From Mytilus galloprovincialis (taxonomy: Eukaryota; Mollusca; Bivalvia; Mytilida; Mytilidae): a DNA stretch of 64,000 bases. The stretch's first letter is position 1. Every line of letters starts with the position of its first letter. Both the position numbers and the translations under genes were made by a program. Below, in pieces: positions 1 to 62,150 of this stretch. The stretch is from contig NC_134846.1 of NCBI RefSeq assembly GCF_965363235.1, forward strand, positions 77,474,724 to 77,538,723. Direction: 5' to 3'. The notes under the pieces were generated by a model that saw nothing but the letters and a program-made list of their open reading frames with translations, was not told the origin of the DNA and did not search any database.

Positions 1-635
1 TAAACTTAAACTTGATATTCTTTACTTCATTCGGTAAACACTACAAAGGAAACAGTAAATGAAAATCTTTACACAAGTGTGTATAAAATCCAACAGGTAT
101 AAAACAAATATGTTGTTCATATGTAGCTATAAATTTTAACTTTTTTTGTTAAAGCTCTGTAATATATTTGCTGTGACAAAATACAGTCATAGCCCATAGT
201 TCTAAAAAATACAAAATATTTTTTTTCTGTTATGATTGGATTGATTCAATCATTATGCAGATGAAATGAAAAATGACTTGTGAATCAACATGTTAAAATC
301 ATTTCGAAAAATTGTTTTCAAAATGGCTTCTTATCAAATCTCTTGATTATCTTTCATTATCGCAACCTTTAGAAAATTGTAAACTGTGATTTGAAAAGTA
401 CTCTTTCTGGTTTATAAACCCAGTTAAACATTGTGAATTCTCATCTTAATATTTTATATAAAAATAACAAGCAAATGAAAATCTTATGGTAATAATTCTT
501 TTTTAAATATGAGTATGTATACCATTATATAAACAAAGTAGTTTTATAAAATATACAATGAACAAACCCTCTGACAAACTGTGTCTTCTACTGTTGCTTC
601 TAGTACAAAGTCAGGTAACCATATAGCACTCTTAC
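1..635. other. AT-rich TOP3A intron, no feature seen
   Basis: Part of the TOP3A intron that follows exon 22. I saw no exon on either strand, in particular no continuation of the zinc finger, and no recognisable repeat. Confidence 0.6.
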
Positions 636-2190
636 ATCCAGGATAACCCATACAACCTATGTAATGTCTGAAACAGGAGAATTAACAAATACTTTAACAT
701 GTACAGGATAACCCATACAACCTATGTAATATCTGAAACAGGAGAATCAACAAATACTTCAACATGTATAGGATAACCCATACAACCTATGTAATGTCTG
801 AAACAGGAGAATCAATAAATACTTCAACATGTATAGGATAAGACATACAACCTGTGTAATGTCTGAAACAGGAGAAATAACAAATACTTCAACATGTAAA
901 GATTAACCCAACCAACCTATGTAATGTCTGAAACAGGAGAAATAACAAATACTTCAACATGTATAGGATAACCCATACAACCTGTGTAATGTCTGAAACA
1001 GGAGAATCAACAAATTCTTTAACATGTACAGGATAACCCATACAACCTGTGTAATGTCTGAAACAGGAGAAATAACAAATACTTCAACATGTACAGGATA
1101 ACCCATACAACCTGTGTAATGTCTGAAATAGGAGAAATAACAAATACTTCAACATGTATAGGATAACCCATACAACCTGTGTAATGTCTGAAACAGGAGA
1201 ATCAACAAATTATTCAACATGTATAGGATAACCCATACAACCTGTGTAATGTCTGAAACAGGAGAATCAACAAATTCTTTAACATGTATAGGATAACCCA
1301 TACAACCTGTGTAATGTCTGAAACAGGAGAAATAACAAATACTTCAACATGTACAGGATAACCCATACAACCTGTGTAATGTCTGAAACAGGAGAATCAA
1401 CAAATTATTCAACATGTACAGGATAACCCATACAACCTGTGTAATGTCTGAAACAGGAGAATCAACAAATTATTCAACATGTACAGGATAACCCATACAA
1501 CCTGTGTAATGTCTGAAACAGGAGAATCAACAAATTCTTTAACATGTACAGGATAACCCATACAACCTGTGTAATGTCTGAAACAGGAGAAATAACAAAT
1601 ACTTCAACATGTACAGGATAACCCATACAACCTGTGTAATGTCTGAAATAGGAGAAATAACAAATACTTCAACATGTATAGGATAACCCATACAACCTGT
1701 GTAATGTCTGAAACAGGAGAATCAACAAATTATTCAACATGTATAGGATAACCCATACAACCTGTGTAATGTCTGAAACAGGAGAATCAACAAATTCTTT
1801 AACATGTATAGGATAACCCATACAACCTGTGTAATGTCTGAAACAGGAGAAATAACAAATACTTCAACATGTACAGGATAACCCATACAACCTGTGTAAT
1901 GTCTGAAACAGGAGAATCAACAAATTATTCAACATGTACAGGATAACCCATACAACCTGTGTAATGTCTGAAACAGGAGAATCAACAAATTATTCAACAT
2001 GTACAGGATAACCCATACAACCTGTGTAATGTCTGAAACAGGAGAATCAACAAATTATTCAACATGTATAGGATAACCCATACAACCTGTGTATTGTCTG
2101 AAACAGGAGAATCAACAAATTCTTTAACATGTACAGGATAAGACATACAACCTGTGTAATGTCTGAAACAGGTAAAATAACAAATACTTT
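636..2190. repeat. 65-bp satellite array, about 24 copies, with a 520-bp higher-order repeat
   Basis: Unit consensus contains AGGATAACCCATACAACCTG and TGTAATGTCTGAAACAGGAG. Units differ by small variants (AATAACAAATACTTC, ATCAACAAATTATTC, ATCAACAAATTCTTT). Positions 1021-1534 and 1541-2054 appear identical over about 514 bases by eye, which makes an 8-unit (520-bp) higher-order repeat. Edge units (before 960) are more diverged. It lies within the TOP3A intron after exon 22. Confidence 0.95.
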
Positions 2191-5500: not shown

Positions 5501-8500
5501 TTTGAGGATTATAAACTACAGGCTCCAAGGAGACGCTCACCTAGTATTTATACATAAAATTGATACAACGCAATGATAAAATTTTTAATCAGGTCAAGCA
5601 AAAACATCCAACAATAAGCAATAGTGCAAAATATTTTCTTGTTTGTTTTGGTGATGAAATCTAAAATTTACGCCAAATTCCTGTCAATTAATGGCTTGTT
5701 ACCTTGACCTTTTAGCCAATGATTCTAAATATACAGGCTTCTTTCCATCCAAAGTCATATTATCCACCAGAGATTTGTAAAAATCTTATCTATTACTCAA
5801 AAGACAAAGCATTTCAGTCTATTTGATTCCAACAATATATATGAGTCTTCTTTGTTTCAAGGGTAATTTTTGGGCTTTGTTGATAAAGATAGAACATATA
5901 GTTCAAAAGACATCATTTTTTTCTAATCATAACTCATTATCAATTGACTCTTACATAAAATCTAGTTTTTATTTATATAATTATCAAACCTACCGATTCC
6001 ATGTTTATCCATCAGTGCTATAAGGTCAGCTTCTGTCAGTAAAGATGGAGGACTTGTTTCACTGGCAACCATCTGAAAAGTTAAATAATTATGCAAAGAG
6101 CTATATCACCGTGTATCATCGTACAGCAGATATAGGTACTAACCAAGCAGGCGTAAGTGATTTTGACCTTACACGGTAATGAAAATCTTTGTTTTGTTCA
6201 CGTAATATCAATCTAAACATAATTGTTGTTTTTAGAAATGATTTGGTCGTAGGTTGATGATAAGAGATGTCTCATTATTTTCTAAAAACAAGAAAGATTA
6301 CTAAAATTATGTGCAAATACTTGTCAAAGAAGTTGGCGCTTGTCTCATCCGATATAATTAGATATTCATAGCAACTCTTTTTCTGATAGAAGGCCACTGT
6401 GTATGTGTATTAAGTATAGCTGTTTCAATAATTGGCATTGAAATATTTAATACATATGTTATTTTTTGATATTTTATTCCGAAAGGAGCATTGTGTACAG
6501 TGTTTAGCTGACCACATAAATCCTTCTGTACGGTACATAGTTAAGTTGTTGTACACCGTACACAAAAAAAAATATTTCCTACTCGTTTATTACCCAAAAA
6601 GTTTCAAGGAATGAGTAATCACAGGTAGTTTTATGATTGGTAACTATTACTGTTGCCCTGTATTAGCTGTCTTTGAGATAAAACATGTAAATGTCTCAAC
6701 AACTGTATCGAAATTGAAAGTTTGTATTGACATTCACAACTATTTGCCCATGTACAAGTTAATTGTTCTTATTAGAATATCAAAGTTGTTTTATAAATAG
6801 GAAAAAAATGATGCCAAAAATATTTGGGAGCAGGAATTTCAAATGTTGAGAAATGTACATTGATAAAGCAAAACAAAGATTTTCGTTACTGTGTAAGGTC
6901 AAAATCGATCATGTCAGCTTGGTTAGTACCTATATCTGCTGTACTGATGATACATAGTGTATATCTATTCCTAATAAAGTCAGTGTCAAAACAGAAACTC
7001 TATTTGAAGTACTTGCATTGTTCATTCTTGAACGATCAAACTGTACAAATTCAAACCATTTTATATTAACTTATATTTATTGTGTATGTGCCTTAATGAT
7101 AATTTACAATATAATTATACATTATCTGAATAATAAAATTGAGAAAGGAAATGGGGAATGCGTCAAAGCGATTACAACCCGACCATAGAGCAGACAACAG
7201 CCGAAGGCCACCAATGGGTCTTCAATGAAGCGAGAATTCCCGCACCCGTAGCTGGCCCCTAAAAATATGTATACTAGTACAGTGATAATGGATGTCATAC
7301 TAAACTCTGAATTATACACAAGCAACTAAAATTAAAAATCATACAAGACGAACAAAGGCCAGAGGCTCCTGACTTCGGACAGGCGCAAAATTGCGGCGGG
7401 GTTAAACATGTTTATGAGATCTCAACCCTCCCCCAATACCTGTAGCCAATGTAGAAAAGTAAACGCATAACAATACGCACTACAAATAAATAAAGTAAAC
7501 TGAGACTTGAATTCTCACTGTTATTAATGTGGATCTTTGACTGCCATTAGAATGTAATTCTTGCAGTCATTATTTTATAAACATCATGTACATTAAAACT
7601 GAAATGAAATTCATCCCTCCCACATCTTTAAAACCATTACCATAAGTTTATCAAAAAAATTCTTAAAATAACATATTGATGTTGTGCTTCTGTTAGTATT
7701 AAAGAAAGATTTGTATTTCTAATGCCATTATAATACTGTGGATTCATTATTATTTGTTGGATACCAATTTTCCTGGAATTTATGTGTACAGGTGAACCAC
7801 GAAATTAAATGTTCAACAAATACCAAATTTTCTATAGGCTCGTAAGCAGACTGCTGTATAACCACAAAATTAAATATCCACGAAAATGTTAGTTTTCCTT
7901 AGTCCACAAAAATTGGTACCCATGAAAATAAATGAATCCACAGCATTGTTTAAAACTTTACCTCAATAGAGTTTGGTTGAAATGTATCTCCTTTGTTATA
8001 AACTGGAATAACCTAAAATAACAAGAACCATTAAAAAAAAACCCAAAAAACCTCAACAAGAGTGCACACACTGAAATGTCTCGCCTTCTTTACTAATCAT
8101 TGATATTATGTTGATAGTCCTAAGTATAAAGCTTTATTACAACTGTCACATAAACTTAACATTAACCAAATTAGCTAAACAAAGACCAATGAACCATGAA
8201 AATGAGGTCAAGGTCAGATGAACCATGCCAGGCAGACATGTACAGCTAACAAAGCTTCCATACAACAAATATAGTTGACCTACTACTTATAGTTTAAGAA
8301 AATTAGACCAAAACACAAAAACTTAACACTGTGCAATGAACCGTGCAATTGAGGTCATGGTCAAATAAAACCTGTGGGACTGACATATAGATCATAATAT
8401 ATTTCCATACACCAAATATAGTTGACTTTTGGCATATAATATTAGATAAAAAAAACCTCAACAAGAGTGCACACACTGAAATGTCTCGCCTTCTTCATTT

Positions 8501-11500
8501 TGTTCTTTACTAATCATTGATATTATGTTGATAGTCCTAAGTATAAAGCTTTATTACAACTGTCACATAAACTTAACATTAACCAAGATAGCTAAACAAA
8601 GACCAATGAACCATGAAAATGAGGTCAAGGTCAGATGAACCATGCCAGGCAGACATGTACAGCTAACAAAGCTTCCATACAACAAATATAGTTGACCTAC
8701 TACTTATAGTCTAAGAAAAATAGACCAAAACACAAAAACTTAACACTGTGCAATGAATCGTGCAATTGAGGTCATGGTCAAATAAAACCTACGGGACTGA
8801 CATATAGATCATAATATATTTCCATACACCAAATATAGTTGACTTTTGGCATATAATATTAAATAAAAAGACCAAACCTTAAAAACTTAACTTTGACCAC
8901 TAAACCATGAAAATGAGGTCAAGGTCAGATGACATCTGCCTGCTAGACATGTACACCTTACAATCATTCCATACAACAAATATAGTAGACCTATTGCATA
9001 AAGCATGAGAAAAACAGACCAAAACACAAAAACTTAACTATAACCAATGAACCATGAAAATGAGGTCAAGGTCAGATGACACCTGCCAGTTGGACATGTA
9101 CACCTTCCAGTCCTTCCATACACCAAATATACTAGCCCTATTGCTTATAGTATCTGAGATATGGACTTGACCACCAAAACTTAACCTTGTTCACTGATCC
9201 ATGAAATGAGGTCGAGGTCAAGTGAAAACTGTCTGACGGGGATGAGGACCTCGCAAGGTAAACACATACCAAATATAGTTATCCTATTACTTATAATAAG
9301 AGAGAATTTAACATTACAAAAAATCTATACTTTTTTTTCAAGTAGTCACTGAACCATGAAAGTGAGGTCAAGGACATTGAACATGGGACTGACGGAAACG
9401 TTGTAACATGAGGCATCCATATACAAAGTATGAAGCATCCAGGTCTTCCACTTTCTAAAATATCAAGCTTCAAAGAAGTTAGCTAACGCCTCTGCCACCG
9501 CCGCCGGATCACTATCTCTATTCCTATGTCGAGCTTTCTGCAACAAAAGTTGCAGGCTCGACAAAAACCATGAAATTATAATCCCTCTATAAAGCCGTTT
9601 TCCCTTTAACCATTAAAATAGATACAAACTAAAAAAATATAACTAAATTTTAGAAAAAAGATTTATGTATTGGCAATTTACAGTTTGGTTAAAACAGGTT
9701 TCACAATAATTGAGATTTTAAATGATTTAATCCTAAGGATGGTAAGATTCTTCTCTGTCTACTAAACCTTCCAACTTTCTATATATTTATATATAACATG
9801 TGTTTACCTTGGCATTCCATTTGTCATAAACATAAACTTCCAGGTAGTTCTTGGCTGTAATCATTAGTCCTTGGGCTGTGAACTGTAAACAAATGTGTGG
9901 TAAATATATATTTATGAAAATTTTGATTAACCCGGTTCATTTGTTACTTCATAAAAGATTATCAGTTAAAAAAAGCAGCAGAAAACTATTCTAAATATAG
10001 ATTGTGATAACAGAGATGTCTTACATACTAAAATACCTTAAAAAATACCACTTATGGTACTTACAGGTTGCATTTCTGTAAATATTGACAATGCAATTTC
10101 CCATAGGAACTCCTTTTACAGCTAAAACTGTACCACTTTTACTATGAAGTTTTGAAAATCTTATCCAAGAATTGAAAGTTAATATGCACTACAATTTTTT
10201 TCAAAGGTCAAAATATAGGGCTGTGCCGCATATTTTCAACGTTTATATGCCCTGACCTTTTCAGAGTTTAAACTAACACTTATTTTCTTAACTACCCCTA
10301 CCTCGAATGAAGTAAAATTGAGAAAGGAAATGGGGAATGTGTCAAAGCGACAACAACCGGACCATAGAGCAGACAACAGCTGAAGGCCACCAATGGGTCT
10401 TCAATGTAACGTGAATTCCCGCCATAGGTGTCCTTCAGCTGGCCCCTAAAAATATGTATACTAGTACAGTGATAATGGACGCCATACTAAACTCCGAATT
10501 ATACACAAGAAACTAAAATTAAAAATCATACAAGACTAACAAAGGCCAGAGGCTCCTGACTTGGGACAGGCGGAATATTGCGGCGGGGTTAAACATGTTT
10601 ATGAGATCTCAACCCTCCCCCTATACCTTTAGCCAATGTAGAAAAGTAAAGCTTACCACAGATTTCAATGTAAACAATATGCACATGTATATTTACTGGT
10701 AACATTCCTAAGTTATGTCTCTATGAGATGGAACACAGAGAGCATAACTGGGAACCGGTATGTAAACAAAATTAATTTTCTATGAATATTCAAAATCTCC
10801 CCAAAAGAGACATGGTTTGAGAAACAGCTGTATTTACAAAGTGCAACCTACAAGTGTTTAGAGAAAAATTTCTAATGATGATAATAATGTGTTCATATAA
10901 GTTCTTGATACTACCTCTTGTTATCTAAAGGATCTGTTTAATAACCAGTGCACTGGCTGGGATGTTTCTTTGAACTTCAGTGTGTGAGCTGAATCAAAAT
11001 AAAACTTTTCTATTTGTATTCATATTCAAGATTTATACAATCAAACTTAAATGTTATTCCTATCAAGTGGTAGATGTATAAAATCAAACTTACCTTTTCA
11101 TTAGCTATATCTATTTCAACAGTTGTCTCAAACCCCTGTGCATCCTGGGAAACGCATGCCAAGAAATGTCGAACCACAAATTCATATACTTTCTTTTCAT
11201 TTCCCTAAAAACACCATATCAACATTAATTTTGTTTTTACATTTATGAGAGATTCATTGACACTTTTCATTATTAGAAAAGCCACATTTATAGAAAATGG
11301 AAAATCTTCAACAAGGAAATACAAATTAATTTGTCTTTTATGCTTCTATTCTCTAATTAAGATGAACTTATTTATAGACTGCTGGTTTTTGTGATCACTT
11401 CTTCCTGTTGCCATTGATAGACTAAGTATTATTATGTAGACAAGAAAAATTCATACTGCTGTTTCAGTAAATATTTGGAGCTTAGTTAACATGTGTCTAA

Positions 11501-14500
11501 CTCTTACAGGTCATGAAATTAAAAAAAAAAACAATAACTTTAAAATTACCTTAATTTATCAACAAAAGACGTCTGTGTAATAAATACCTGTAAATTATCT
11601 GTATACTTTGTTGGATGTATAGGAGGATGGGCCTGGTCAGTTTTATTACCATTCCTTGGACTAGGACCATTTTCTAAAACTCTCCTGGCAAAATCTAGGG
11701 ACATAAAAACACATAAACATAATTGTAAAAAATAAATCAGCTTTCGTTTGCATCCTGCTTTATTTCTGAGCTTATACATGTATATGGTTTCTAATTGTTC
11801 ATCTATATTATTTGCTCCGATTTGATTAAGTTTAAAAGAATATGAATTTTAACAGATAGAAAATATTTATTCCTGATGCAATAAACAACATAGCATACTC
11901 CCTTGTTTTCACTGTTTCATATTTCTCTTCAACTTTACATGGGAGCAACCATAAAGAGAAGATAAACCTTCACATTAATTGTGTAAGCAATTATGTTTAC
12001 CTGCTAAATAATACAAGAAATTTTAATGTTCAGAGTGATTTTTATTTTCAATTTATCCTTTTTGGGGGTTTATTGTTAGGCAAGAAATGGATAATACACC
12101 TACCTCCCCAGTTATTATCCCTTGTTTGATCCTCTACTAATTTCTGTAAATCTGAGCATTAAATGGACCTTACACACCAACCTCCCCAGTTATTATCCCT
12201 TGTTTGATCCTCTACTAATTTCTGTAAATCTGAGCATTAAATGGACCTTACACCTACCTCCCCAGTTATTATCCCTTGTTTGATCCTCTACTAATTTCTG
12301 TAAATCTGAGCATTAAATGGACCTTACACCTACCTCCCCAGTTATTATCCCTGGTTTGATCTTCTACTAATTTCTGTAAATCTGAGCATTAAATGGACCT
12401 TACACACCAACCTCCCCAGTTATTATCCCTTGTTTGATCCTCTACTAATTTCTGTAAATCTGAGCATTAAATGGACCTTACACACCAACCTCCCCAGTTA
12501 TTATCCCTTGTTTGATCCTCTACTAATTTCTGTAAATCTGAGCATTAAATGGACCTTACACCTACCTCCCCAGTTATTATCCCTTGTTTGATCCTCTACT
12601 AATTTCTGTAAATCTGAGCATTAAATGGACCTTACACCTACCTCCCCAGTTATTATCCCTGGTTTGATCTTCTACTAATTTCTGTAAATCTGAGCATTAA
12701 ATGGACCTTACACACCAACCTCCCCAGTTATTATCCCTTGTTTGATCCTCTACTAATTTCTGTAAATCTGAGCATTAAATGGACCTTACACCTACCTCCC
12801 CAGTTATTATCCCTTGTTTGATCCTCTACTAATTTCTGTAAATCTGAGCATTAAATGACCAATACACCTACTTCCCCAATTATTATCCCTTGTTTGATCC
12901 TCTACTAATTTCTGTAAATCTAATTCTTTAGGAAACATATTGGTTTCTGTACGAGGATAACTTATAAATCCCTGTGTATACAACTTCTCTGCAATCTTCA
13001 TTGTTTCTTTGGCATTAATCCTCAATTTTCTCGATGCTAACTTTTCCATTTCCTAAAATATTTGATAATGATAGAAAATGGAATGCTGCTGACAGTATGT
13101 ATGTATGTATGTATGTATGTGACAATGATAAATCAGAACCAATCAATTTGATCATGCTATTAAGATGATTGAGTTTGTCTCTTCTATTGGCCTTACATCT
13201 ATTTCCTCTACTAATTTCCGTAAATCTGAGCATTAAATGGCCAATACAATCCAGTGCCTATTGGTTGTTTTCTGCTCTTTGGTTAGGTCGTTGTCTCTTT
13301 GCCTCATTCCCCATTTCAAATCTCAATTTTATATGTGGTCCAAGGACACAGTTATCATTCTTTGGTTTTCTTTGTCTAAGAATATAGTCCCTAGTGTGAA
13401 CAGTGTTTAACTTGCTTTTTTTATATACTTTCCCAATTTATTTCTTGATATTTAATGCATGAAACATTTAAAAGTAGGGAAATGAAATTACATGTTAGAA
13501 AAATTTGGGTGTGAATCTGTATGTAAGTAGTGATTTTGTCCAGTTAAAAAAGGTAAAAAATTAGCCCCCCTTAACACAGAATTGTCAATATTTTGAGTTA
13601 GAGCTGGTAGAAGTTTCTATAATTTTGATATTATTTGTCCCAATAGTAGTACACTAAACTGTAAAAAAAAAACTTTTAGATAGAGCAGGTGCAATTTTTT
13701 TAATTTGAATATTTTGTCTAAAAGAAATGCACTACGAAATAAGTGTGTTCTCGGGACATATGTTGCCAGTACAAGTCAAATGAATATCCAATGTTTTTAA
13801 ATACATTCTTTATTTCAAGGGACTTTATCTTTTAATCCATGCCTGCACATTAGTATATCTAAAAAGGGGTGGTTAACTTTTAAAATAGACTGATCAATTA
13901 AATCACACTTACAACTGTATCTAAAGCTGTTGGTCTCCATTTACTTTTTGTTTTAGATTTGACATCCACTACTTTAGCGACTGGATTCTGAAAATAGACA
14001 TATCTAATACAATTATCTATTCCTAAAACATATAGCCTACAGACTAAGCTTACAATACCATTTTCACAAACTTACATAATTGGTAACTAAATCCCTGTGC
14101 CTTTAATGGATTTGTACATGTTTATTAATTTTTTTTTTATCAAGTCACTATTTTTCGTTAATTTGTTAAAATGTTTGCCTATTTTTTTCTTCAAAGTTAT
14201 ATAAACTGTAAACATCCCCTAGGAAGTTATGGTAAGAAAGGTAACAATTCAAAGTCTTGTAACATTGATTTCTGATACTTTGAACATAAACATGTCTTAC
14301 CTCAATGCAATGTGTGTACAGCACCAGGCAAGCAAGGTGGTCAAACAGACGATTTCTATAAAAGAAACACGATTAGGCATTTCATTTAACAAAAGTTCAG
14401 ATAGTCTCTGTTCATTATGCAATAACAAACAAACCTTTCAAAGCCTTTTAAAACTATTATTCAATTCTTGTACAAGACTACCTTAACCAGTCCTTTTTAT

Positions 14501-27290: not shown

Positions 27291-27655
27291 AGTCCCCTAC
27301 CGATGAAGTAGAAGGGGATTTAATGTTGCACTCTGTCCCTCTTGTTTGTCCATCCGTCAGACTGGCAAATCAGTTTTCCAGACTTTTTTTCTTAATGCTT
27401 GAAGATATTGGTTTGATATTTGTCATATTGTTTTCATGATGACAAGTTACAGGTCGAGTTTGTTTTTCACGATTTAAGCTGTTCTCCTTGTTCAGTTAAA
27501 TCTCTTTCCCTGGAATTAAAATTTTGATGAAATACTTATTAATTACTAGATTTCTGTTCAAAAGGAAAAACTGATTTTTAACTTTCACTAGAATTAAATT
27601 TTTAATGAAATAGTTATTTATTACTAGATTTCTGTTCAAAGGGAAATAACTCATT
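27291..27655 (+). mobile_element. HINE-like 5' part, family F9
   Basis: Starts with AGTCCCCTACCGATGAAGTA followed by GAAGGGGATTT, a 5' hairpin, then GTTTGTCCATCCGTCAG. It is interrupted at 27658 by an F4 element. Confidence 0.5.
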
Positions 27656-27657
27656 TT

Positions 27658-29447
27658 TGTCAAGCCTGCTACTTTTGCGGCAGAAAGCTTGACATAGGGA
27701 TAGTGATCCAGTGTCGACATTACCTAACTTCTTAAAAGCTTAATATTTTAGAAGATAGAAGACCTGGATGCTTCATTCTTTTTATATAGATGCCTCATGG
27801 TACGAAGTTTCTGTCAGTCACATGTCCAATGTCCTTGACCTCATTTTTATGTTTCAGTGACTACTTAAAAAAAAAGTTAAGATTTTTTTTAATGTTAAAT
27901 TATCTCTTAATATAAGTAATAGTATAACTATATTTGGTATGTGCGTACCTTGCAAGGTCCTTGTGTCTGTCAAACAGTTTTCACTTGACCTCAACCTAAT
28001 TTCATGGATCAGTGAACAAGGTTAATTTTTGGTGGTCAAGTCCATATCTCAGATACTATGAGCAATAGGTCAAGTATATTCAGTGAATGGAAGGACTGCA
28101 AGGTGTACATGTCCAACTGGCAGGTGTCATCTGACCTTGACCTCATTTTCATGGTTCAGTGGTTATAGTTAAGTTTTTAACCGGATTTTTGTGACAAAAA
28201 TGTCGGTTATTGATTTGGGGATGTACGGCGGTCGGGCGGCCGGGCCGGCGACAACCAAATGTTGTCTGTGCATTTACTCATTAACCGTTCAACCAAAGCT
28301 TTTTAAATTTTAATATGTTGTTACAGACAACAAAATGAAGGTCAAGTTCAATAATGACGATTTTGACTTTTACTGTTCAGGAGTTATGGTTCTTGAAAGA
28401 TTGAAAAATGGCATTTCCAGTCGTGTCCGTGCATTTACGCATGAACTGTTCAACCAAAGCTTCCCAAATTTTAATATGTTGTTACTGATGACAAAATGAA
28501 GGTCAAGTTCAATAATGACGATTCTGACTTCTACCGTTCAGGAGTTATGGTTCTTGAAAGATTGAAAAATGGCTTTTCCAGTCGTGTCCGTGCTTTACTC
28601 ATGAACTGTTCAACCAAAGCTTCCCAAATTTTAATATGTTGTTACTGATGACTAAATGGAGGTAAAGTTTAATAATGACGATTTTGACTTTTACCGTTCA
28701 GGAGTTATCGTTCTTGAAAGATTGAAAAATGGCTTTTCCAGTTGTGTCCGTGCATTTACTCATGAACCATTCAACCGAAGCTTTTCAAATTTTAATATGT
28801 TGATACTGATGACAAAATGGAGGTCAAATTTGATATTGACGATTTTCACTTTCACCGTTCATCAGTTATAGTTCTTGTGATATTGGCAGGATACAAATAA
28901 ATGTTAATAAATTCGGTTTGCTGTCGTTGTGACAGCCTCTTGTTATGTTTTGGTCTGTTTTTCCTATACTGTATGCAATAGGTCTACTATATTTGGTGTT
29001 TGGAATGATTATGAGGTGTACATGTCTAGCTGGCTGGTGTCATCTGACCTTGATCAAGTGGTCAAAGTTTAGTTTTTGAGTTTTGACTAATTGGTCTTTT
29101 TTTCTAATACAAAATGTACTATATGCAATCGGTCATCTATATTTTGTGTATGGAAATATTTTATGATCTATATGTCAGTCATGCAGGTTTTATTTGACCG
29201 TGCTCAGTGTTAAGATTTTGTGTTTTGGTCTGTTTCTGAAACTATAAGCAATAGGTCAACTACATTTGTTGTATGATAGAATTGTAAACTGTACATGTCT
29301 ACCTCATTTTCGTGGTTCATTGGCCAATGTTTAGTTTTCTTGATTAATGTTAAGTTGATGCGACAGTTGTAATAAAGCTTTATATTTAGGACTATCAACA
29401 TAATATCAATGATAAGTAAAGAAGGCGAGACATTTCAGCGTGTTGTT
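27658..29447 (+). mobile_element. HINE-like element, family F4, carrying a nested F3 element
   Basis: 5' hairpin GTCAAGC/GCTTGAC at 27659-27693 and a 3' end with GGCGAGACATTTCAG, then TGTT near 29440. The core matches 8460-9562 in reverse. An F3 element (28179-28942) is inserted in it: the other copy reads TTAAGTTTTTGTGTTTTGGT where this one is split, an empty-site comparison. Confidence 0.75.
28179..28942 (+). mobile_element. HINE-like element, family F3, with a 160-bp tandem core
   Basis: Starts AACCGGATTTTTGTGAC and forms a hairpin with AATGTCGGTT; then a GGTCGGGCGGCCGGGCCGGC tract; then four ~160-bp core units starting near 28261, 28421, 28582 and 28742; then ATTCGGTTTGCTGTCG, where ATTCGGTT is inverted to the 5' AACCGGAT; then a hairpin CTGTC/GACAG and CTCTTG before TT. 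The whole set matches the layout described for bivalve pearl/HINE elements. Confidence 0.75.
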
Positions 29448-36547: not shown

Positions 36548-36715
36548 TTGCTATTGCACATTACTGTGCAATTGAAGATTTCTTGCTATTGCGCAATACT
36601 GTGCAATTGAAAATTTCTTGCTATTGCACAATACTGTGCAATTGAAGATTTCTTGCTATTGCTGAATACTGTGCAATTGAAAATGTCTTGCTATTGCACA
36701 ATACTTTATATAATA
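36548..36715 (+). repeat. 35-bp tandem repeat, five units, each a hairpin
   Basis: Units start at 36548, 36583, 36618, 36653 and 36688 with TTGCTATTGCACAATACTGT. TTGCACA-ATAC-TGTGCAA can pair within each unit. It abuts a reversed F2 core (36721-37420) and appears to be part of that composite. Confidence 0.8.
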
Positions 36716-37425
36716 ATTATGGATCCTGATTTGAACCAATTTAAAAACTGGGCCCATAATCAAAAATCTAAGTACCCGGTACATGTTTAGATAAAGCATA
36801 AAAAAAAGCCCAAGAATTCAATTTTTGTTAAAATCAAACTTAGTTTAATTTAGGACCCTTTGGACTTTAATGTAGACCAATTTGAAAACGGGACTAAAAA
36901 TTAAGAATCTACATACACAGTTAGATTTGGCATATCCATGATATCAAAAACCCCAATTATTCAATTTTTGATGAAATCAAACAAGGTTTAATTTTGGACC
37001 CCGATTTGGACCAACTTGAAAACTGGGCCAATAATCAAAAATCTAAATACATTTTCAGATTCAGCATATCAAAGAACCCCAAGGATTCAATTTTTGTTAA
37101 AATCAAACTAAGTTTAATTTTGGACCCTTTGGACCTTAATGTAGACCAATTTGAAAACAGGACCAAAAATTAAGAATCTACATACATAGTTAGATTCGGC
37201 ATATCAAAGAACCCCAATTATTTCATTTTTGATGAAATCAAACAAAGTTCAATTTTAGACCCTTTGGGCCACTTATTCCTAAACTGTTGGGACCAAAACT
37301 CCCAAAATCAAACCCAACCTTCCTTTAGTGGTCATAAACCTTGTGTTTAAATTTCATAGATTTCTATATACTTATACTAAAGTTATGGTGCGAAAACCAA
37401 GAATAATGCTTAGTATATATATTTG
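36716..37425 (-). mobile_element. HINE-like family F2 core, reversed
   Basis: Modules with GGACCAATTTGAAAACGGG and AGATTCAGCATATCAAAG-type sequence, in the opposite orientation to 38142-39240. The 5' end is cut by the SINE-like repeat at 37426. Confidence 0.6.
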
Positions 37426-38141: not shown

Positions 38142-39240
38142 TATACGACCGCAAAAATTGAAATTTTTTTGGTCGTATATATATTGGTATGACGTTGGCG
38201 TCGTCGTCGTCGTCGTCGTCCGAAGACATTTGGTTTTCGCACTATAACTTTAGTATAAATAAATAGAAATCTATGAAATTTAAACACAAGGTTTATGACC
38301 ATAAAAGGAAGGTTGGGATTGATTTTGGGAGTTTTGGTCCTAATAGTTAAGGAATTAGGGGCCAAACAGGGCCCAAATAAGCATTTTTCTAGGTTTTCGC
38401 ACAATAACTTTAGTATAAGTAAACAGAAATCTATGAAATTTTAACATAACGTTTATGACCACAAAAGGAAGGTTGGGATTAATTTGAAGTTTTTGGCCCC
38501 AACAGTTTAGGAATTAGGGGCCAAAAGGGTCCAAAATTAAACTTTGTTTGATTTCATCAAAAAATGAATTATGGGAGTTCTTTGATATGCCAAATCTAAC
38601 CGTGTATTTAGATTCTTAAATTTGTTGGTCCTGTTTTCAAATTGGTCTACTTTAAGGTCCAAAGGGTCCAAAATTAAACTAAGTTTGATTTTAACAAAAA
38701 ATGAATTCTTTGGGTTCTTTGATATGCTGAATCCAAACATGTACTTAGATTTTTGATTATGGGCCCAGTTTTCAAGTTGGTCCAAATCGGGGTCCAAAAT
38801 TAAACTTTGTTTGATTTCAACAAAAATTGAATATATGGGGTTCTTCAATATGCTGAATCTAACCATGTATTTAGATTTTTAATATTTGAGCCCGGTTATC
38901 AAATTGGTCCACATTGAGGTCTAAAGGGTCTAAAATTGAACACTATTTGATTTCATCAAACATTGAATTCTTGGGGTTCTATGATATGCTGAATCTAACC
39001 ATGTATTTAGATTTTGGATATTGGACTATAATAGGTTAATGTCCAATTTAAAAAAAAAATAAGTTTAAGTTCCTAGACCACATTCATTCTGTGTCAGAAA
39101 CCTATGCTGTGTCAACTATTTAATCAGAATCCAAATTCAGAGCTGTATCCAGCTTAAATGTCGTGTCCATACTTGCCCAAACTGTTCAGGGTTCGCGGAC
39201 CTCTGCGGTCGTATAAAGCTGCGCCCTGCGGAGCATATGG
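38142..39240 (+). mobile_element. HINE-like element, family F2
   Basis: 5' end TATACGACCGCA forms a hairpin with TTGGTCGTAT; then (GTC)n at 38190-38220; four core units of about 135 bp with TGATATGCTGAATCTAACCA; then TGCGGTCGTATA, the inverse of the 5' end, and a terminal hairpin GCTGCG-CCC-TGCGGAGC before ATATGG-TT. A second 3' end lies at 37945-37992. Confidence 0.75.
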
Positions 39241-51657: not shown

Positions 51658-52307
51658 TTGTAAATTTTTAGAGAATATTTTCCACTGTAATTACTGGGCC
51701 AAGTACATTATAGATAGAGATAATTGAAGCAACAAGAATGTTCAGTAAAGTAAGATCTACAAACACATCACTATCACCAAAACACAATTATGTCATGAAT
51801 TTATCCGTGTCCATTGTTTAATATGCACAAGACCAAGGTGAGCGACACAGGCTCTTTAGAGCCTCTAGTTTCTTTATACCCCTCCCAGATTTATTTCTTC
51901 ATGTTTTATGCCTCAAATAGTAAGAAGAAGACAAAATAACACTGTGAAAATTTTTTATTCTTGAATTCTACAGTAAAGTTAGTGATTTGGTCCAGCTGAA
52001 AAGGGTTAAAAATCAGAATGTCAGAAGCTATCAAAAGATTTTTAAGACCCCTTTTACATAAAATTGTCCATATTTTGAGTTAAAACCAATGAAGTTTTCT
52101 ATAATTTGTCCGAAAAGTAGTACAACACACTGTAAAAATATTACCGAGAAAGCGCAGGTGGGATTTTTGTTATTGTCTAAAAGAAATGCACTATGAAATA
52201 ACTGTACTTGGAACAGCACATAAAAAATTATACATGGCAATCCTTTATTTTGAAAACCCTAATATTCTTACACCTCAATAGTCAATAGTTGGAGAGAGGC
52301 ACTTGAT

Positions 52308-52594: not shown

Positions 52595-52865
52595 AAAAAT
52601 CAAAACATAGCAGCGGTTTTAATTTGCCTATTCAAAAATTTGATTGCTTATTTCATAATTTTACAAGAAAATTTTCCTTTATGGTTCTTCTCATTCAGTA
52701 TCTGGTTTAAATGTATATTAATCCAAAAGAAAACAAAAAAGTTGGAATATATAGATCTTATAATTAGTTGAGCTGACATTCATAAAGGTGTGCCACAGGT
52801 AGCTTTCTAGTCCTGGACTTCTTTTGATTAATGCTTTTATATTAAACCGATAGTGTTTTTTTTAT

Positions 52866-53463
52866 TAAGCATAGCTCATAGTATAACTACGCAACTGACA
52901 ACACATTGTTGTTTTTTTTTTAAGCAGAGCTCATAGTATAACTACGCAACTGACAACACATTATTGTTGTTTTTTTTTATTAAGCAGAGCTCATAGTATA
53001 ACTACGCAACTGACAACACATTATTGTTTTTTTTATTAAGCAGAGCTCATAGTATAACTACGCAGCTGACAACACATTATTGTTTTTTTTATTAAGCAGA
53101 GCTCATAGTATAACTACGCAACTGACAACACATTATTGTTTTTTTTATTAAGCAGAGCTCATAGTATAACTACGCAACTGACAACACATTATTGTTTTTT
53201 TTATTAAGCAGAGCTCATAGTATAACTACGCAACTGACAACACATTATTGTTTTTTTTATTAAGCAGAGCTCATAGTATAACTACGCAGCTGACAACACA
53301 TTATTGTTTTTTTTATTAAGCAGAGCTCATAGTATAACTACGCAACTGACAACACATTATTGTTTTTTTTTATTAAGCAGAGCTCATAGTATAACTACGC
53401 AGCTGACAACACATTATTGTTCTGTTTATTTTATTAAGCAGAGCTCATACTAACTAAGCAGCT
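52866..53463. repeat. 56-bp satellite, eleven units with T-runs
   Basis: Units share AAGCAGAGCTCATAGTATAA and CTACGCAACTGACAACACAT, then ATTATTG and 8-9 T. GAGCTC positions recur at 56-bp steps from 52873 to 53443, with longer T-tracts in three units. A/G variants at one site (GCAACTG/GCAGCTG) alternate without simple order. Confidence 0.93.
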
Positions 53464-59070: not shown

Positions 59071-59732
59071 TTAACCCGCCGCTGCTCGTAGATCGAGAGC
59101 GGGGCGAACCGGTGCGTCACATGGTTCTCTCTATTTTTCTCTTCTTTTTCGTTTAAAAAGTCACCTTTATAAAACATGATCATAGAAACGTTTTTGACCA
59201 AAAAATAGAAAAGGGTACTTATAAACTAAATTACTCATAAGAAATAATGACTTTTGATACCAAACACGACACAAAAAGATGAAAATGCTAAAATTCACAA
59301 TTTCTCGCATTTTTACAACATGACACAGCAATCAAAATTGGGTTTCAAATGTGGATTAAAATATAAAGATTTGTAAGACTACGTACAGTATGTTCTATAC
59401 CTCTCCACTTTCGATATAGATTTTTTTTTTGCACGTGTATTCCTCTAGCTCAGTTTAACTCAAAGATAGCTGGAAGAATTAGACCAACAATAATTTTCAA
59501 AAAAAAAAAAGGATAATAGAAACCTTGATTATATAGAAAGGACAAATAATATGTATATAGTTTTAAACAAAAGCAAGACAAAAACACCTTTATATAGTCA
59601 AACAAAACATTCTCTCAAACTGGCATCACCACAAGATGCTTGAACTTTATTTTTATATATTTTTTTTATGTTAGGTGAAAGTGTTTTTCAACAAAACGTT
59701 GGCATTTCGATATGTTAGAACCAACTTTTGTT

Positions 59733-60017
59733 CTACTGTCGCCGACTTGTTTCTTTGTTCGTTTGAGACAGACTTTCACACAGGGATGTCTACTGTCGCC
59801 GACTTGTTTCTTTGTTCGCTTGAGACAGACTTTCACACAGGGATGTCTACTGTCGCCGACTTGTTTCTTTGTTCGTTTGAGACAGACTTTCACACAGGGA
59901 TGTCTACTGTCGCCGACTTGTTTCTTTGTTCGTTTGAGACAGACTTTCACACAGGGATGTCTACTGTCGCCGACTTGTTTCTTTGTTCGTTTGAGACAGA
60001 CTTTCATACAAGGATGT
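59733..60017. repeat. 57-bp minisatellite, five copies, open in several frames
   Basis: Units start at 59733, 59790, 59847, 59904 and 59961 (CTACTGTCGCCGACTTGTTT). Because 57 is 19 codons and the unit lacks stops in several frames, long ORFs appear on both strands (minus: repeats of RHPCVKVCLKRTKKQVGDS). The first four copies differ at one base; the fifth has two changes. I do not take the ORFs as genes. Confidence 0.95.
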
Positions 60018-62150
60018 CTCAAGTATCTAGCAGTATCCGATAATTTCACGTTTTGAGATCGTAGATGTAGTCCCTCATTTAACGATAAAAGAATAGTACA
60101 AACTATTTGCATTTATCCCATTTGATTTGGAATAAAGGGTGATAGTCACACATATGCATTTCGGTCTGCTTCTTAAGTAGAATCACGTCAATCATAACTG
60201 CATGTTTAGAGTCGGTTTGCAATTTTGGTAATGCTTCCATTGTGAAATTTCCACTTGTTATCTTGTTATATATGAATTAAAGCGTTTGAATAGAACTTAT
60301 TTTGCATTTCGTTTTTTTTTGCTATTTCTTTCCATCTATAATAGTTTCTGCAAAAACGATTAAAACATTAAACATTCGTTCAAGGGCAAATACTACTCAA
60401 TTTCGCAAAACTGATAAGTTTGGGCTTTCTCTCTGACTATTATGATTTTAGTATAGCTAGTCTTTCTAAGGAAATCGCTCCCATAAAGAGACATTTGACG
60501 ATTTCTGGCTAGCTGCCTTTTTTGTAAATCATAAGTTATTCGGGTCATTATACTGTTGAAACTATCTCTATCGATAGTTTTCAAGATAATAACAAAAAAC
60601 TGTACCCCTCTCCCCCCTTCCCCCATAAAATTATGACATTTGCAGCTTTTTACTGAAAATACCAGCGTTGGCAGTCATTGATCTGCTGATCATTTTTTTA
60701 TCTAGGTCTTGCTGCTTTAGTTTTGAGATATAGGTCAAATACTGCATTTAACCCCTTTATGTATTTTTATCAATAGAAGCCATGTTTGTTGATGGACCAA
60801 GCACAAAAGTAAACAAGATACAATAAAGAACATTCTGGTTAATTTCGGTTACATTCAAATTTGTCAGAAAAGTTTTTTTTTTTAAGTTTACAATATGGCA
60901 GACAGATGACAAAGACAAACACCAAATGATGGCAAAAGGTCACATGGCCTGCCCATGCAGGTGAGGAGGAGAAACGGTTGTTGATTAATTGTTATAAATC
61001 TTGCATCCTGAGGAAATAATAATCAGCAAACACAAATTAACAAACTGTTCAAATACAGTATTAGAAAGATATTGAGAAAGAAACCAACTGCATTTTAGGC
61101 CATAGGGAAAGCTGTTTTGAAAGAAGAAAAATAGTAATACCTATGGTGTTATGGCCCGCCAATATGGACTGTGCAATTAAATTCGTTTTTCAATGACATT
61201 TTATTCATTCAATTGTTTAATGATTATTCATGTTTTGCATTTATTTTATTATTCTGGACTAGCTTTGTCGTTAATTTAGGCATAAGTGTTTAACGCGGAT
61301 AATGTGTCATAATCTTAGACAAAGTACTTAACTTATCTAATCCATTCATTTAATTATTTATGCTCTATAACAATTTGGACAATAATTTACATATACGTGT
61401 CGAACATCAATTACTCTTTTAATCTATTGTTATTTCTATTTGGCATCTGTTAATCTTCTTAATTCTTTAATTGCTTGTGCTTATATATATTGCTATTGTT
61501 TGTATGTTAAATAACATTTACTTAAGAATTTGTTGTTCAGTCTTGCCGACTGCTAACATCAAAGATTTTGGAGGGAAATATTCCTTCTTGATTTCCATAT
61601 GATCGGAACGCCAAATTACCCAGCTGTATTATTTTAAATTCTTATTTTGTTTGAGGCCCATAAATATTAAACTGAATGGGGAATGTGTCCAAGCGACACA
61701 GATGATGCCACCGTGTGTTAAGCCAATTTAAAACGCAATTATATGCGACTGTCATATAAGTTAGAGGTTTAGCGCTATAAAACCAGGTTCAATAATCCAC
61801 CATTTTCTACATTTGAAAATGCCTGTACGAAGTCAGGAATATGACAGTTGTAGTCCATTCGTTTGATGTGTTTTGTCATATGATTTTGCCATCTGATTAG
61901 CGACTTTACGGTTGATTTTTTCCTTGGATTTCAGTATTTTTGTGATTTTACTTTTTGCATATGATATAAAGTATAAAGGGACAAAACTGAATAAGATTAA
62001 TCAAAGTGCTTGCAAGCACCGAAGGGTAAAGATTGTTTTATTTTTTTCAGTGAGCAGTGCATTGTATGAAGCATTGGTTGCTGTTGATTCAACTACAATT
62101 ATGGACAAAGGAAGATAACTCCAATTAAAAAGAAATAATTTTACAATTAC
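60018..62150. other. Intergenic with repeat fragments
   Basis: 60640-60830 is a degraded reverse F1 core. 61660-61715 has a fragment of the SINE-like repeat (GAATGGGGAATGTGTCC). 61797-61960 is a copy of the repeat at 41675-41865. No gene seen. Confidence 0.5.

Follow-up and report, generated by a model that had tools for sequence, protein, structure and literature searches.

In the mussel TOP3A gene, the exon that carries the active site is followed by tandem copies of its own end, each with a splice donor. This arrangement raises the questions of how such an array arises and which of the competing donors splicing would be expected to use. According to an earlier note on this DNA, the array must be either ignored by splicing or a regulator of TOP3A output. 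Here, we describe the locus within its window (the whole 64-kb stretch of DNA that was analyzed) and compare it with splice junctions elsewhere in the genome.

Results

The TOP3A active-site exon is followed by ten copies of its own junction

A tblastn search with a human TOP3A sequence placed the exons of the gene in order on the minus strand, from 21096 in the window to -5604, which lies beyond the window edge on the same contig. The final two segments both match a single zinc-finger stretch. A match at 52068–52157 was dropped because it was weak (E 0.64) and on the wrong strand. The active-site exon, delimited by homology and reading frame, occupies positions 12872–13052 (minus strand, 181 nt), contains the YPRTET motif, and ends with DNNWG. 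The next exon is located at 11588–11694 (minus strand; FARRVLENG...TKYTDNLQ). When spliced together, the two exons matched the human TOP3A structure 4cgy (E 1.2e-45) and the Pfam family Topoisom_bac (E 2.4e-23). With this match and with YPRTET inside the exon, the original assignment to TOP3A holds, and the proposed join from 12872 to 11694 gives the expected TOP3A protein reading, as judged by the frame of the genomic sequence.

TRF detected a tandem array at 12095–12921 with a period of 76 bp (10.8 copies, 95% matches) and, for the same array, a second period of 308 bp (98%). Cutting at AGATTTACAG yields 11 minus-strand units of a donor-side array at 12096–12921, and the unit nearest the exon is the authentic exon end. 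The 76/78-bp unit spans the boundary of an exon confirmed by homology and consists of the last 50 nt of this exon and the first 26 to 28 nt of the intron. The exon-side unit (12846–12921, minus strand; 50 nt of exon end at 12921–12872 and 26 nt of intron head) is followed by nine whole 76/78-bp units and by a last unit, from 12153, which fades into unique intron. Both TRF and the cut into units thus bear out the claim that ten extra copies of an exon tail with its splice donor form a minisatellite; the repeated exon piece is, however, 50 nt long and not 40 nt as had been stated. The intron before the exon also contains a decayed extra unit (13204–13253, minus strand) that is 88% identical to the array reference.

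One edge of the array retains the authentic exon, whole and in frame. Its GT donor (12870–12871, minus strand; GGAA/GTAGGT), identified by reading frame, is the 5′-most of eleven, and GT is found at the expected place in 10 of 10 copies. The eleven donors are therefore present as described previously, but they are not equivalent: six of the ten copies read GGAG/GTAGGT and four read GGAG/GTTGGT. The TTTACAG within each copy, described previously as acceptor-like, is itself coding sequence.

Units could be sorted into types a, b, and c, and copies 2 to 10 run a b c a b b c a b. The authentic unit at the edge differs from these nine, as expected of a copy that lies outside homogenization. The four-unit higher-order structure noticed earlier is exact: units 3 to 6 (12462–12769, minus strand) and units 7 to 10 (12154–12461, minus strand) form two blocks that are identical over 308 bp, which supports, by inference, growth through unequal exchange. 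In a DNA search of the 1.38-Gb assembly (331 contigs; common words skipped), the unit was matched at the TOP3A locus only. It was therefore derived from TOP3A itself, and a dispersed or transposon origin can be dismissed within the scope of that search. With these properties, the TOP3A array is best assigned to a known but seldom described class, the mirage minisatellites of amphioxus.

Extra donors would lead to a stop codon and outscore the authentic donor on a rough scale

Reading through from each of the decoy donors leads to a stop codon in 10 of 10 cases. Since this stop lies inside the first added copy, all ten products would terminate at one and the same residue. Transcripts with one, two, or three 40-nt micro-exons would likewise meet a stop within the first of them; the frameshift predicted previously for micro-exon inclusion stands, but there are also two stop codons inside each 40-nt piece.

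Donors were scored against a consensus with vertebrate frequencies, which gives a rough scale. On this scale, the authentic donor reached 1.84 bits, compared to 6.27 bits for six of the ten copies and 2.24 bits for the other four. The authentic donor is thus the weakest of eleven by this rough score, and the order has a plain basis: the real exon ends in A, and the copies end in G. Therefore, position rather than strength would have to decide between them. Strength does not explain faithful use of the authentic TOP3A donor, which counts against the account that we favor below. The active-site exon's own acceptor also had a poor score (−3.15), which counts against this account as well; the scores were −2.42 for the AG context in the copies and 2.56 for the next real acceptor.

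A mirror-image array precedes the zinc-finger exon

TOP3A contains a second array, unseen by the earlier reader, which is the mirror image of the first. It consists of 24 copies of a 65-bp unit (639–2189, minus strand), each combining the end of another TOP3A intron (..TTGATTCTCCTGTTTCAG), including its pyrimidine tract and TTTCAG, with the first 28 to 29 nt of the zinc-finger exon. This exon (574–667, minus strand; homology traced to 574) matches Zn_ribbon_Top1 in Pfam (E 3.9e-13) and starts, at 667, with the 3′-most acceptor copy. The authentic acceptor is accordingly the last of the 24, and the 23 extras lie upstream, in the intron. All 23 decoy acceptors read into a stop, while the authentic acceptor stays open. 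There is long-range order in this array as well, with 572 identical bases found eight units apart. The two TOP3A arrays thus share one feature: the intact exon sits at the exon-side edge.

Other repeats were found in and around the gene. One array with 29/139-bp periodicity (~1.7 kb, 6055–7724 of locus L008) lies within TOP3A and spans no junction. Four arrays of the window (52854–53449, 59732–60019, 27504–27658, and 36548–36705) showed no tie to a known exon when inspected by eye and for open frames. The array at 59732–60019 has a 57-bp unit, a multiple of three, in five copies, and frames are open across the whole array on both strands, at least two forward and at least one reverse. Further arrays are located at 8086–9229, 28263–28877, 36714–37267, and 38527–39019. 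Scans of the 64-kb window with Rfam (gathering thresholds) and for tRNAs detected nothing.

Junction-spanning arrays recur at other exons

To estimate recurrence, exons were drawn by protein-family searches of the genome, regardless of repeats. The sample consisted of 30 exons each of myosins and kinesins with 1.5-kb flanks, 20 ABC-transporter exons with 400-bp flanks, and 20 further kinesin exons with 600-bp flanks. Exons were taken in list order (30 of 93 matches for myosin and 50 of 125 for kinesin); the 20 ABC-transporter exons were among the first 21 of 82 matches, with one near-paralogue skipped. An array at a sampled exon was counted if it contained at least 2.5 copies. By this count, 10 of the 100 exons had a junction-spanning array: 1 of 30 in myosin (L025), 8 of 50 in kinesin (L047, L050, L061, L067, L092, L095, L106, and L109), and 1 of 20 in ABC transporters (L084). 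Locus L081 has two copies only. In TOP3A, there are 2 arrays among 26 homology segments.

Arrays at L061, L067, L084, L106, and L109 are acceptor-side, and those at L025, L035, L047, L050, L092, L095, and L111 are donor-side. The arrays at L035, at L053 with L110, and at L058 with L111 appear to be built from the ends of neighboring exons that were not on the sampled list. At L053, the locus stops short of the authentic exon. The readings at L053 and L111 are presumably those of kinesins; the exon read from L111 matched no Pfam family, and that of L035 matched Myosin_head with an E value of 5.5e-6, below the curated cut-off.

Splice signals are kept in most array copies among those listed. When the seven donor-side arrays other than that of TOP3A were scored, again among the copies listed, the order of strength relative to the authentic site was mixed. 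Some copies beat the authentic donor at L047 (5.84 versus 4.76) and L095 (8.79 versus 7.31), the authentic donor tied for best at L035 (1.73), L050 (7.17), and L092 (2.45), and it was the best at L025 (2.03), where the array is old and decayed. At L111, the listed copies scored 0.8 to 0.9; the authentic donor is outside the scored set, and its first bases match a higher class. Given these mixed strengths, correct splicing of the genes would require that proximity to the exon frequently override strength or break ties.

Splice junctions are over-represented among arrays at the surveyed loci

We compared the positions of arrays with a null model in which each founding unit was placed at random within its own locus (20,000 trials). 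Arrays were accepted with units of 30 to 200 bp, at least 2.5 copies, and at least 75% matches, thresholds that were set after the first survey results had been seen. Junctions were defined as ends of homology matches. Some TOP3A ends were placed by hand, and where myosin matches fall within long open frames, as some do, the match ends may not be junctions. Some surveyed loci overlap, and the duplicate rows L041 and L051 were dropped.

There were 29 distinct arrays in 273 kb, of which 12 span a sampled junction compared to 3.57 expected (~3.4-fold, P ~1e-4). The excess persisted without TOP3A (10 of 26 versus 2.97 expected, P 2.5e-4), among kinesins only (8 of 21 versus 2.65, P 0.002), and among arrays with at least three copies and 85% (8 of 16 versus 1.8, P 1.5e-4). 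It was weaker when only the 3-kb loci were considered (5 of 19 versus 1.62, P 0.017) and not significant for myosin only (1 of 4 versus 0.18, P 0.17). Plain non-junction arrays make up 14 of the 29. Non-junction arrays with long units (126 to 191 bp) were found at L042, L044 (two), L048, L064, and L104. The 65-bp array of L051/L093 was counted as non-junction, and its reading is coding-like. Since duplications that touch an exon should be lost more often than intronic ones, we infer that purifying selection alone does not account for the junction excess.

Three TOP3B loci were inspected after this test and are outside its counts. Two exon peptides from them matched human TOP3B with an E value of 3.4e-39, compared to 1e-16 for TOP3A. 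Junction arrays were present at two of the three loci. The donor-side array (L006, 1569–3153) follows the active-site exon and has a 65-bp unit, of which TRF counts 23.6 copies before the locus ends. Both the catalytic motif and a GTAAGT donor lie within this unit, and the locus has 23 such donors. The acceptor-side array (L007, 1295–1515) consists of four 54-bp copies upstream of another exon. TOP3A and TOP3B thus have one array of each type apiece, with the donor array on the active-site exon in both. Because the affected introns interrupt the protein at different places in the two genes, the arrays look like independent events. With arrays at one exon in ten, the coincidence could be due to chance.

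Discussion

We consider it very probable that the TOP3A array is a mirage-type minisatellite, a duplicated splice junction that has grown by unequal exchange and whose extra copies leave with the intron. Its founding event would have been the tandem duplication of a ~76-bp stretch that covers the end of the active-site exon and the head of its intron, and unequal exchange would then have expanded the array in blocks of four units at most. During splicing, the exon would most likely be paired with the adjoining donor, the extra copies being removed with the intron. Such a duplication would be tolerated because one complete exon keeps its own donor and all extras fall inside the intron; with a whole exon at the edge and the rest in the intron, a junction duplication should therefore cost little and be able to expand. 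Events of the same type, involving either donors or acceptors, have occurred many times over in this genome.

In amphioxus, mirages are described in Adh3, the globin genes BflGb6 and BflGb9, and TnC, with similar repeats in PGBD5; their units are 10 to 160 bp long, and splicing is reported to be normal (PMC3087553, PMC3902484). As in TOP3A, the tandem copies reported there cross an exon-intron boundary at its 5′ or 3′ side, many of them keep AG or GT, and array boundaries escape homogenization. The TOP3A arrays, with 11 and 24 copies, are longer than the 3 and 6 copies given for BflGb6 haplotypes. They also come from another animal group and form a mirror-image pair in one gene. While the amphioxus cases appear in those reports gene by gene (PMC3087553, PMC3902484), the present survey measures how often such arrays recur across sampled exons. 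A literature search of open-licence papers found no mirage in a mollusc among the papers listed. An abalone kinase gene contains a length-variable 27-bp intronic minisatellite that the passages on it do not describe as junction-spanning (PMC6905558), and no such arrays appear in passages dealing with gastropod hemocyanin introns (PMC7931591).

Repeats at splice junctions are also described in other contexts. In human genes from segmental duplications, internal tandem repeats at exon-intron boundaries can, according to one report, alter splicing (PMC2812944); these are recent paralogues with new introns, ~30-bp units, and about four repeats on average, unlike TOP3A. Intron gain by tandem duplication is proposed in the Rogers model (named in PMC3087553) and described for potato RdRp (PMC4974935). 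There, as in TOP3A, the duplicated sequence is said to hold splice signals, but in TOP3A an existing intron has been enlarged and no new intron is seen.

The nearest case with reported use of copy donors is the minisatellite of human IFI6 (6-16), for which the original paper is reportedly that of Turri (1995). Two of its downstream repeat units reportedly serve as donors (PMC4526556). As in TOP3A, repeat units at an exon end offer several donors; in TOP3A, by comparison, use of any of the ten extra donors would result in a stop.

The IFI6 precedent lends some weight to the view that the array acts as a brake, in which a share of transcripts takes a stronger copy donor, meets the stop, and undergoes nonsense-mediated decay, so that copy number tunes TOP3A. 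The ten copy donors all outscore that of the exon itself, with a margin of 4.4 bits for six of them on the rough vertebrate scale, and an early stop is found in each of the ten decoy products. Regulation of TOP3A output is conceivable but unsupported. Amphioxus mirages are reported without disturbance of splicing (PMC3087553, PMC3902484), and similar arrays in unrelated genes (kinesins, myosin, an ABC transporter, and TOP3B) argue against a device specific to TOP3A. We therefore regard a brake as unlikely. As to the alternatives posed initially, analogy with the amphioxus arrays suggests that the array is probably ignored by splicing rather than regulatory.

It is far less probable that splicing includes some units as 40-nt exons that add to protein variety. 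Each copy does have AG and GT 40 nt apart, and its AG context is rated at least as high as the acceptor of the real exon; nevertheless, the next real acceptor scores higher, and any one to three such exons would stop translation inside the first. We assign an equally slight chance to arrays collapsed or duplicated by the assembler. Identical 308-bp blocks are what assembler duplication could in principle produce, but the units carry distinct variants in a defined order, and comparable arrays with variants of their own exist at many independent loci.

Beyond TOP3A, splice junctions may be preferred birthplaces of minisatellites in this genome, with about one exon in ten carrying an array of its own donor or acceptor and both topoisomerase III genes included, a generalization that we would neither press nor discount. 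If it is true, there would be thousands of genes in which splicing picks one site among near-identical copies. The arrays at about one in ten sampled exons amount to many natural experiments on this choice. They bear on whether the site nearest to the exon always wins, as well as on where minisatellites begin and how introns grow.
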